Shown here one piece after another: positions 15,646-40,058 of a stretch of DNA of 64,000 nucleotides. The translations under genes and the position numbers were made by a program. The stretch is taken from NCBI RefSeq assembly GCF_017873555.1, contig NZ_JAGGKE010000014.1:1-64000 (forward strand), in the 5' to 3' direction. The stretch is from Halorubrum trapanicum. Its GTDB lineage: Archaea; Halobacteriota; Halobacteria; Halobacteriales; Haloferacaceae. Each line of letters opens with the position of its first letter. Position 1 is the first letter of the stretch. The notes beneath the pieces were generated by a model. That model saw only the letters and a list, made by a program, of their open reading frames with translations. It had not been told where the DNA came from and searched no databases.

Positions 15646-16683
15646 ATGCCCGCGCCGCACGCCACGGTCCGCCCGACCGACGCCGCGTCCCTCGACGAGT
15701 CGCCCTCGGGGGCGGTCGGCGACCGCGAGTCGCCGCCCGAACTCCCGACAGAGCTGCTGAACATCCCGTGGATCGACCCGCACAACCACGCGCACACGCT
15801 CTCGTGGGAGGACCGCGAGCGGTACGCGCTCTCCGGCTGCCGGTCGATGGTGATGGTGTCCTCGGGGTACCACTGGACCCCCTACAAGCCCGTGGAGGCC
15901 AGCGACATCCGCTTTTTGTGGGACGACGCGATCAACCGCCGCGAAGCGATCGAGCGTAACCACTTCTTCGAGGCGAAACTGGGGCTGGGCGTCCACACCG
16001 GCGTCCGGATCGAGGACCCCGACGAGCTGCTGGCCGCGATGGACGACTACTGCGCGCTCGACGAGGTCGTCGCCGTCGGCGAGACGGGCGTGACCCCGAC
16101 CCAGCACGTCAAGCGCTGGGACGTGGACGAACAGCAGGCGGTCGTTCAGACGCAGATGGAACTGGCCGACGACCACGACCTCCCCGTCCTGCTCCACACG
16201 CCGAACACCACGCCCGAGGCGAAGCGCGAGTACCGCGACGACCTCGGCGTCACCCCCGGGTACGAGAAGAACGCCGGCCTCGGAACCGAGCCGGTCCTCG
16301 ACGGCGAGAACCCCGCGCTCGAAGCCGTGAAACGCGACGTCGAGGCCGCGCGCGACGCCGGGCTGGACGAGGAGCGCGTCGTCGCCTCGCACGCGGACGC
16401 GAACAACACCGCGTACCTCATGGAGGAGACGGACTGCTACCTGAGCTACACCATCGGCCACTCGTGGCTCGTGGGCGTCGACGCCGCCGACGTGGCGAAC
16501 GCCATCGACGAGTACGGTCCCGAGCGGATCATGATCGACACCGACACCGCGAACGTCCTCCGAACCGACCCGTACGCGGTGAAGCGCGCGGTCTTCGAGC
16601 TGTACCGCTACGGCATCGACGTCGACGACATCCGGACCGTCGTGTACGAGAACCCGCGCGACGTGTTCGGGCTGACGGAGTGA
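15646..16683 (+). CDS. TatD-like metal-dependent hydrolase (COG1099 type)
   Basis: A 345-residue TIM-barrel hydrolase. Metal ligands are visible in order: DPHNHAH (HxH, about 43-49), GETGVTP (Glu, about 145), LLHTP (about 180), ASHAD (about 247) and IDTDTAN (Asp, about 302). This is the TatD/amidohydrolase pattern; the HTLSWEDRERYALSGCRSMVMVS region resembles the archaeal COG1099 subgroup. Substrate unknown. The leaderless start lies about 28 nt after the TATA box adjoining the operator at 15596, so it is co-regulated with the divergent propeller-DoxX operon. Confidence 0.85.
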   Translation: MPAPHATVRPTDAASLDESPSGAVGDRESPPELPTELLNIPWIDPHNHAHTLSWEDRERYALSGCRSMVMVSSGYHWTPYKPVEASDIRFLWDDAINRREAIERNHFFEAKLGLGVHTGVRIEDPDELLAAMDDYCALDEVVAVGETGVTPTQHVKRWDVDEQQAVVQTQMELADDHDLPVLLHTPNTTPEAKREYRDDLGVTPGYEKNAGLGTEPVLDGENPALEAVKRDVEAARDAGLDEERVVASHADANNTAYLMEETDCYLSYTIGHSWLVGVDAADVANAIDEYGPERIMIDTDTANVLRTDPYAVKRAVFELYRYGIDVDDIRTVVYENPRDVFGLTE

Positions 16684-16690
16684 GGAGACT

Positions 16691-16925
16691 GCGGTGGCGC
16701 GTGCCTGCGAGCGGCCACAGGCCGCGAGTCGCACGCGCGAGGGAGTCAGTCGCCGGAGCGAAGCGACGGCGACTGACGAGGCTGGGGAGGCGTGAGGTGC
16801 TGTGCGGAGCGGTGCGGGGTGGGACTCAAAGGGGCAGTCGCGAGGCCGCCGCAGGCGAAGTAAGCACCGCAGAAGCGAGTGAAACGAGCGACGAGGAGCG
16901 CAGCGAGCGTGCGGCGGCCTCGCGG
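16691..16925 (+). repeat. Dispersed structured element, copy A
   Basis: It fills the spacer between two convergent genes. Helix P1: GCGCGTGC (16697..16704) pairs with GCACGCGC (16731..16738), with an inner stem GCGGCC-aca-GGCCGC (16711..16725) separated by a GA/GA internal loop. Then come the conserved linker GAGGGAGTC, helix P2 GTCAGTCGCCG/CGGCGACTGAC (16745..16777) closed by the 11-nt loop GAGCGAAGCGA, and the conserved stretch GACGAGGCTGGGGAGGCGTG. A third domain is closed by a 13-bp stem (16840..16852 with 16911..16923) and contains GCGAGTGAAACGAGC. No protein-coding signal is seen. Confidence 0.85.
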
Positions 16926-16935
16926 CTGGGGCTTT

Positions 16936-16948
16936 GGCGGTTTTTCTC
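16936..16948 (+). terminator. T-rich transcription terminator
   Basis: Right after the last stem of copy A, the plus strand reads TGGCGGTTTTTCTCTG. T-runs are the usual archaeal termination signal. This one would end transcripts from the TatD-like gene and copy A before they run into the convergent FAA-hydrolase gene. Confidence 0.55.
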
Positions 16949-17016
16949 TGCCGATTTCCGGTTAATCAGTTATAATCGAGCGATCGAGAGATTACGGTGG
17001 AGTCCGGTGTCGAGGA

Positions 17017-39221: not shown

Positions 39222-39263
39222 ATCGAACCGAGCGGGAGTCGACGCGCTCGTTTATTTATCCAC

Positions 39264-39507
39264 TATGGCGCGTGCCGGTGAGCGCCCGAAGGGCGCGAAC
39301 CGCACGCGCGAGGGAGTCGCGAGCGGTGCGAGGTGCGAGCGAAGCGAGCACCTCGATCGCGAGCGGTGAAACCGCGAGCAGCGAGCGACGAGGCTGGGGA
39401 GGCGTGAGGTGCTGTGCGGAGCGGTGCGTTCCCGCGGGAGGGACCGAAGGTCCCTCTGGCAGCCGGCGCGAAGCGCCGGCGACGAACCCAGCGGGAGCAC
39501 CGGAGTC
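39264..39507 (+). repeat. Dispersed structured element, copy B
   Basis: P1 pairs GCGCGTGC (39268..39275) with GCACGCGC (39302..39309), continues as GGT/ACC, has a GA/GA internal loop, and an inner stem GCGCCC-gaa-GGGCGC. P2 is CGAGGTGC/GCACCTCG (39329..39355) with the same 11-nt loop GAGCGAAGCGA as copy A. A GCGGT-gaa-ACCGC hairpin and the conserved GACGAGGCTGGGGAGGCGTG follow. The 3' domain has two hairpins (GAGGGACC/GGTCCCTC; GCCGGCGC/GCGCCGGC) enclosed by TCCCGC/GCGGGA and GTGC/GCAC. A TTTATTTATC box lies just upstream. Confidence 0.85.
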
Positions 39508-39832: not shown

Positions 39833-39904
39833 GCGCTTCCGTGCGATCGGTTAGTTGCTGACAAACCGGTGCTGGTGTATCGATCCGGGTGAACGCCGTC
39901 GAAG

Positions 39905-40058
39905 CCCCGCCTCCCGGCCGCCCCTTCGGATCCCGCCCCGCACGGCGACCGCACCTCACACCTCCCCAACCTCGTCGGCCTCCCTCCGGTCGGCCGACTC
40001 CCTCGCACGCGCTCCTCGCGCCCGCCGGGGGCGGCCGCTCGGAGGCGCGCGCCACCGC
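39905..40058 (-). repeat. Dispersed structured element, copy C (inverted)
   Basis: On the minus strand, GCGCGCGC pairs with GCGCGTGC (one G-U pair), then TCC/GGA, a GA/GA loop and CCGCC-ccc-GGCGG. The linker GAGGGAGTC follows, P2 is TCGGCC/GGCCGA (39975..39997) with an 11-nt loop GACCGGAGGGA, and then GACGAGGTTGGGGAGGTGTG. Compared with copies A and B the linkers are kept but the stems differ with pairing preserved. The 3' domain is short (GGCGGGATCCGAAGGGGCGG). Confidence 0.82.

Follow-up and report, generated by a model that had tools for sequence, protein, structure and literature searches.

The locus at 16691–16937 raises the question of what kind of element would carry the same tandem G·A module in its stems, and whether this module marks an RNA bound by the protein L7Ae. 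The window referred to here is the whole 64,000-nucleotide stretch of DNA that was analyzed, which is part of a contig (C14) of the 3.08-Mb assembly of Halorubrum trapanicum. The first-pass annotation had quoted two examples of the module, and both strings are present in the window, with GCGAGTGAAACGAGC at 16875–16889 and GCGAGCGGTGAAACCGCGAGC at 39359–39379. The recurrence of the module within copies was also borne out, and the tandem G·A modules are both conserved and strand-specific.

The module belongs to a repeat of approximately 250 nt, found mostly in intergenic regions, which is composed of three hairpins (P1, P2, and P3). On the plus strand, the 5′ part runs from TGCGGTGGCGCG through P1 to GCGAGGGA, followed by P2 and the core GAGGCTGGGGAGGCGTGAGG, after which come a G-rich linker of variable length, the motif GGGACTC, and P3. 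This last hairpin is laid out as a CAAAG/CTTTG clamp, GGG opposite GGG, and a long stem, which ends in 2-bp helices that alternate with GA/GA loops. Two covariance models were used, R2 for the 5′ domain and R1 for P3, and the features of the three copies in the window are as follows.

16691–16937, plus strand: copy A, full element, with 133.8 bits for R2 and 124.8 bits for R1, copy A being one of the 30 rows from which the covariance models were built.
16691–16827 and 16823–16937, plus strand: the 5′ domain and the P3 domain of copy A, respectively.
16697–16738, plus strand: P1 of copy A, from sequence and covariation, with GCGCGTG/CACGCGC, a conserved C, and a variable short helix, and in its upper part GA/GA (16709–10, 16726–27), an upper stem, and the triloop ACA (16717–19).
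16745–16777, plus strand: P2 of copy A, from sequence and covariation, with an 11-bp stem, GA/GA (16756–57, 16765–66), and a GC-GAA-GC mini-hairpin.
16778–16797, plus strand: core of copy A, nearly invariant, also among the copies that were not picked by the core pattern.
16827–16936, plus strand: P3 of copy A, from covariation, with the clamp CAAAG/CTTTG (16827–31, 16932–36), GGG opposite GGG (16832–34, 16929–31), and the terminal GA/GA ladder with the module at 16875–16889.
39262–39431, plus strand: copy B, from the R2 score (76.5 bits) and the fold, a 5′ domain with an enlarged, branched P2 that holds the module at 39359–39379; no P3 was found with R1.
39438–39480, plus strand: two-hairpin cassette beside copy B, recognized by eye, GAGGGACC-GAA-GGTCCCTC and GCCGGCGC-GAA-GCGCCGGC.
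39928–40058, minus strand: 5′ domain of copy C (R2, 88.2 bits).
About 39895–39932: P3 of copy C, a short CGAAG...CTTCG remnant, recognized by eye.

Perfect hairpin pairs of the type seen in the cassette beside copy B appear by eye to be a second family, located in or beside the stems of the element, and they were also noted at five other loci (L012, L025, L156, L189, and L198).

The enrichment of the module was assessed by scanning for 2 bp, GA, 2–5 bp, a loop of 3–4 nt, 2–5 bp, GA, and 2 bp. Copies A, B, and C (the last on the minus strand, 39928–40058) each contain two modules, a number reached by 2, 1, and 0 of 500 dinucleotide shuffles, respectively, with shuffle means of 0.04–0.07. In 32 copies from the same genome, 47 modules lie in the sense orientation and one in the antisense, where 2.1 are expected. 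Applied to the whole 64-kb window, this loose scan recovered 35 matches (shuffle mean 22.9, maximum 37 in 40 shuffles), a count inside the shuffle range, so that the enrichment belongs to the elements, and not clearly to the window at large. In the wider alignments, conservation at the GA positions is 0.88–1.00 in P1 and P3 and 0.82–0.92 in P2, with many paired columns at 0.5–0.8. The module had been described as present in all P1 and P2 stems, but variants among these stems do not have it; the GA/GA internal loop proposed for P2 is found in copy A itself, and most P2 hairpins have a 3 × 3 GGA/GGA loop instead.

The three copies in the window are members of a large family. In the same genome, R2 recovered at least 132 matches at E ≤ 2.6e-7 and at least 146 at E ≤ 0.01, and R1 at least 132 rows at E ≤ 0.01, which represent about 123 places, nine of them matching on both strands; these counts are lower bounds, given that 150 candidates were scored per search (of 8,518 for R2). 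The elements thus account for approximately 1% of the genome (132 × ~250 nt in 3.08 Mb). At E ≤ 1e-6, there are 124 matches in one relative (G201) and 69 in another (G148), and the size of the family is roughly 70 to 130 copies per genome. At E ≤ 1e-8, R2 matched 49 of 292 genomes of the class, including all 35 of the Halorubrum genomes sampled (that of the window among them), in which 10 of the 10 scored candidates matched; the other 14 genomes are weak, with 1–7 matches each. In the named collection, the matches listed are mostly from Halorubrum, with others from Haloparvum, Halosimplex, Halorussus, Halobellus, and metagenome-assembled genomes (MAGs).

A sister type is found in Haloparvum and, by sequence, also in Halosimplex and Halorussus. 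Seen by eye, the Haloparvum and Halosimplex copies keep P1, P2, a variant of the core, the GGG/GGG base of P3, and the tail repeats, and differ at the tip of P3 (CTATCNGCG...GAGAG...GATAT), and many Halorussus-like copies have this P3 with no recognizable 5′ domain within 300 nt. The pattern of the sister tip occurs in eight of 292 genomes, from three genera, and its reversed control in a single match. At loci L231–L260, this tip reads CTATC[C/T/G]GCGC-GGGCGGTGCGGAGA-GCGC[G/A/C]GATAT, in which one pair is compensating and the 14-nt loop is conserved.

At the gathering threshold, Rfam 15 returned no match in the whole window except for an SSU rRNA at its edge, where positions 1–62 of the minus strand match the 5′ end of the archaeal 16S rRNA (model positions 1–62), and a lax search of 16600–17000 recovered a single chance match of 15 bits. 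A resemblance of GGTGGCGCGTGCCTG to SRP/Alu was dismissed, being without Rfam support. No published name, description, or transcript of the element was found in the literature searched, which lay mostly outside subscription journals; the text examined of one paper that names vesicles of Hrr. lacusprofundi (PMC10927574) contains no such repeat.

Across species, the copies are retained at the same positions, and they are seldom found on plasmids. The site of copy A (site A) is occupied, according to the models, in 18 of 29 relatives. For the site of copy B (site B), a pattern search found 20 of 29 relatives to be occupied, with one further occupied locus by model (L187), whereas the sequence of L199 ends at the gene; the two sets are the best 30 loci, the window's own included, of 31 (A) and 51 (B) matching genomes among 52 searched. 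A match was found in three of 72,556 plasmid records, including a plasmid of Halorubrum salinarum, in a collection from which records of close relatives may be missing. No match was found in 50,697 phages, and no viral contig contained the exact 20-mer searched, in collections that may omit records near the genome of the window. In G148, 68 copies lie on contig C1 and one on C2, and in G201, all 124 lie on C3. The neighboring genes of 111 copies are convergent in 31 cases, tandem in 25 and 22, and divergent in 20, with one side unknown in 13; gene calling relied on a simple GC3 criterion, and the 21 distances with a negative value probably reflect spurious ORFs.

Many copies share the three-hairpin architecture, with fixed unpaired landmarks and stems that change freely in sequence yet remain paired. 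In 30 P3 domains from a single genome (alignment A2), 22 of 35 pairs have changed on both sides, and 97.6% of the cells are paired, compared with 83.9% in shuffled alignments and 26–47% in slid registers. The corresponding values for the 5′ domain (A1) are 13 of 32 pairs and 92.7% versus 86.9%. Both alignments have 30 rows, from which odd or inverted copies were left out (the L013 copy and the plus copy of L025 in A1; the second L012 copy and the L024 copy in A2). Orthologues that share a single site likewise keep their pairing, given that at site A the two-sided changes amount to 25 of 35 pairs in P3, with 97.7% paired (17 rows that represent 16 loci, L157 being present on both strands), and to 19 of 31 in the 5′ domain, with 93.8% paired (19 rows). 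Among copies selected by a model match or by their position, 25 of 35 pairs in P3 (32 rows, 96.3% paired) and 25 of 31 in the 5′ domain (36 rows, 94.9% paired) have changed on both sides. Alignments A3–A8, including A5 with its two L157 rows, were fitted to the models, and lean towards structure.

The G-tracts are nearly invariant, with the core GGGG and both P3 GGGG tracts present in 30 of 30 rows of A1 and A2. This conservation is partly built in, because the copies of A1–A4 were gathered by their likeness to copy A or by the core pattern, and those of A2 also by patterns of the P3 base. In the copies that were not picked by the core, the core is present within one error in 32 of 36 and its GGGG in 35 of 36, the two GGGG tracts of the P3 base in 31 and 30 of 32, and the linker GGG-N-GGG in 32 of 36.

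The hairpins do not always travel with the rest of the copy. A comparison of 158 distinct copies, drawn from several species, yielded 102 different P2 hairpins with a length of 24 nt or more; 16 of these hairpins are shared, and one 35-nt P2 is found in 11 distinct copies. Within the genome of the window, pairs of copies with an identical P2 have P1 and P3 similarities of 0.755 (14 pairs) and 0.726 (16 pairs), versus 0.767 (392) and 0.748 (419) for the other pairs; across all species, same-P2 pairs are slightly more alike (P1, +0.018; P3, +0.025). Two relatives have at site A a 41-nt P2 that another relative has at site B, and the interior of P3 is inverted in at least eight copies, in which the best R1 strand is opposite to that of the adjoining R2. 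The presence of an identical P2 in otherwise unrelated copies shows that hairpins are exchanged between copies, with P2 behaving as a cassette.

Following P3, 16 of 32 copies have one or two tail units, in which the sequence of the 3′ strand at the base of P3 recurs. The period of these units is a multiple of three in 77 of 80 cases, mainly from Halorubrum (48 to 87), and is 75 in all six Haloparvum cases, and it is not a multiple of three in three of 11 Halorussus-like and Halosimplex-like cases. A coding origin of the tail repeats was rejected, given that, for the three forward frames, 25, 23, and 37 of the 79 units contain a stop. The tail set, like the hairpin-loop set considered below, also includes six loci from outside Halorubrum (L127, L129, L132, L135, L141, and L143) and three from MAGs (L049, L050, and L123).

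A cruciform formed by both strands should tolerate G·T and A·C mismatches equally, and an excess of G·T thus points to folding of the plus strand. In the paired columns, G·T outnumbers A·C by 104 to 30 under a symmetric filter (83 of 88 rows and 84 of 104 rows retained) and by 124 to 71 in the unfiltered columns. The rows are related to one another, and p-values for the filtered counts are thus no more than indicative; a count from an asymmetric filter (103 versus 19) was not relied on. The tolerated mismatches, together with the GA loops, single out the plus strand.

Whether this strand acts as RNA or as single-stranded DNA (ssDNA) is a question on which the evidence is divided. A TATA-like, AT-rich box has its main peak 19 nt before P1 and a weaker one at 50 nt; it was found by a simple pattern in 60 of 135 copies, and is also visible in a Halorussus locus (L077). 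This box at −19 suggests a promoter, and hence an RNA. The usual archaeal spacing between box and start would place the transcription start from the −19 box inside P1. The GNRA loop is the favored RNA tetraloop, and the G..A tetraloops of the element comprise 18 GNYA versus one GNRA, an avoidance stronger than would be expected under the rules for DNA or for RNA. In the hairpin loops of P1 and P3, GNA triloops make up 63 of 160 (P3, 44/74; P1, 19/86), and other triloops 62 of 160, mostly in P1 (46/86), so that the argument for DNA loops rests on P3 and P2. As described in the available text of PMC4686876, GNA and GNNA loops form extraordinarily stable DNA mini-hairpins, with a Tm of 78 °C for GCGAAGC, and it is this motif and other GNA loops that recur at the tips of P2 and P3. 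Unlike the isolated d(GNA)/d(GNNA) mini-hairpins, the loops of the element are parts of a larger conserved genomic fold, GNRA-type loops are avoided, and the P1 tips are mostly other triloops. Because of these loop types, we lean slightly towards ssDNA, and not a transcript, as the form of the active strand.

Given this, the explanation that we favor, with a likelihood that falls a little short of even, is that the element represents a REP-like family of large repeats that is old, intergenic, and bound to the chromosome, and whose members would act as a folded single plus strand, either RNA or ssDNA. The constant parts, that is, the core, GGG/GGG, the G·A ladders, and the GNA loops, would form the recognition surface of a host factor, which would require the shape and not the sequence of the stems. 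The hairpin sequences would thus be free to drift by exchange, through ectopic gene conversion across the conserved linkers, with selection presumably keeping the fold at most sites. As an alternative to selection at each site, conversion from a few functional copies could maintain the structure. Some gain still happens, as indicated by a lineage-specific insert of approximately 775 bp with a copy in one relative (G038). The combination of free hairpin sequence, fixed shape, and hairpin exchange makes the family a testable case of selection on the fold alone, and a folded copy used as bait would be a direct route to the putative binding protein.

REP families come with a RAYT transposase (TnpA-REP), and have a conserved tetranucleotide beside the hairpin. 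In contrast with REP/RAYT, the hairpin cassettes of the element swap, and there is no consistent Y1 transposase. At E ≤ 1e-5, PF01797 (the Y1 transposase) is present in 81 of 116 genomes of the class, and was found in none of four element-bearing genomes of the same genus (G006, G009, G011, and G015), and a link with REP/RAYT was rejected because the transposase is missing from these four. The resemblance to REP/BIME lies in the high-copy palindromic repeats, which fold, lie between genes on the chromosome, and number about a hundred per genome, REPs being present in more than 100 copies per genome according to the available text of PMC2817692. Unlike REP/BIME, the element is much larger, comprises three domains that covary, and has a long core that is conserved and unpaired.

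A second explanation, possible and yet clearly on the unlikely side, is that the copies are structured non-coding RNA genes, transcribed from the AT box, bound by protein, and acting in trans or in cis. This would account for the TATA-like box at 19 nt (and, more weakly, at 50 nt), for its presence in the Halorussus locus, and for the G·T excess, and covariation with conserved unpaired landmarks is found in structured RNAs, just as the presence of all neighbor orientations is typical of independent units. The main box, however, is too near P1 for a normal archaeal start, on the spacing given above, and is present in only 60 of 135 copies, and the tetraloops are GNYA rather than GNRA. The large structured RNAs OLE, ROOL, and GOLLD, of unknown function, are present in a single or few copies per genome. 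The element is like them in its size, its covariation, and its conserved unpaired blocks, but occurs in tens to over a hundred copies and has no Rfam match; the literature searched likewise contains no published transcript, which also counts against an RNA gene.

The family may, alternatively, be a non-autonomous mobile element, either a MITE or IS200/IS605-like, which spread once and is now mostly fixed, with its structure kept by homogenization, although this appears unlikely. The dispersal of the copies, the patchy occupancy of the sites, the tandem tail units duplicated within single copies, the inverted P3 interiors, and the rearrangement breakpoints at copies would all be consistent with mobility, as would the lineage-specific insertion in G038. 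That insertion is an extra copy in a segment absent from the genome of the window and from three relatives, but in this single insertion examined, neither clear borders nor a clear target-site duplication could be seen by eye. In addition, in contrast with MITE and IS200-IS605 derivatives, the element has hardly spread onto the plasmids and viruses of the collections searched, being rare on the former and absent from the latter, Y1 (the transposase family searched) is not tied to the repeat, and the paired structure is intact at old sites.

More doubtful still is the idea of a new class of archaeal element, anchored by G-tracts that may form a potassium G-quadruplex, with interchangeable hairpin cassettes traded among approximately 100 chromosomal sites. 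The tracts of the quadruplex would be the core GGGG, the linker GGG-N-GGG, and the GGG opposite GGG at the P3 base, and it is speculation that these near-invariant tracts adopt such a structure in a potassium-rich (molar-KCl) cell. The DNA-type GNA tips and the G·A ladders would provide a sequence-independent recognition surface, and the trade in cassettes would proceed through a dedicated or a gene-conversion process.

The GA loops had initially been read as kink-turn cores and targets of L7Ae. The element does resemble kink-turns in its tandem G·A pairs inside a helix, predicted from sequence, and GA opposite GA is real, but a kink-turn has a three-nucleotide bulge beside the G:A pairs (PMC8191799), and the covarying loops, which were checked for this bulge, are 2 × 2, 3 × 3, or one nucleotide unequal, and recur as a ladder of GA modules. 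Registers resembling a k-turn are found 41 + 23 times in 34 copies, compared with 19.7 in mononucleotide shuffles, and belong mostly to a single register, in which the 5′ strand of P1 (GCC-NNN-GA-GCG) is set against the core CGTGAGG. This alternative register includes a 3-nt bulge and is compatible with 62 of 82 copies, each with at least one G·U, but with none of the 82 by Watson–Crick pairs alone. It also excludes P1, which covaries, the core does not follow where the P1 side reads GGC (14 copies), and several copies of the Halosimplex type do not, by eye, retain the core GTGAGG. The P1/core register was set aside for want of covariation, and a kink-turn RNA bound by L7Ae is a highly improbable explanation of the family.

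Some minor observations concern the arrangement of the copies on the chromosome. The strand order of the copies in G201 looks random (65 runs against a mean of 61.7, with 123 of 124 copies used), and a replication-strand bias was rejected. Copies that lie close together (300–2500 bp) are nearly always convergent, with their tails facing each other and one or a few housekeeping genes between them, as seen in nine of 11 cases in the genome of the window, seven of eight in G201, and, by eye, about five of six in G148. Composite mobile units with cargo were also rejected, given that the genes in between (SRP54, MsrA, peroxiredoxin, and others) look, by eye, like housekeeping genes.

A block of approximately 34 kb (5645–39900 of the window) is inverted relative to all four of the relatives G038, G153, G206, and G148. 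One breakpoint region of this block holds copies B and C, and the other joint holds a copy of the element in three of the four relatives, G148 being the exception. Copies at a rearrangement breakpoint bear on the evolution of haloarchaeal genomes, and the presence of element copies at the inversion joints matches the pattern expected from recombination between copies.
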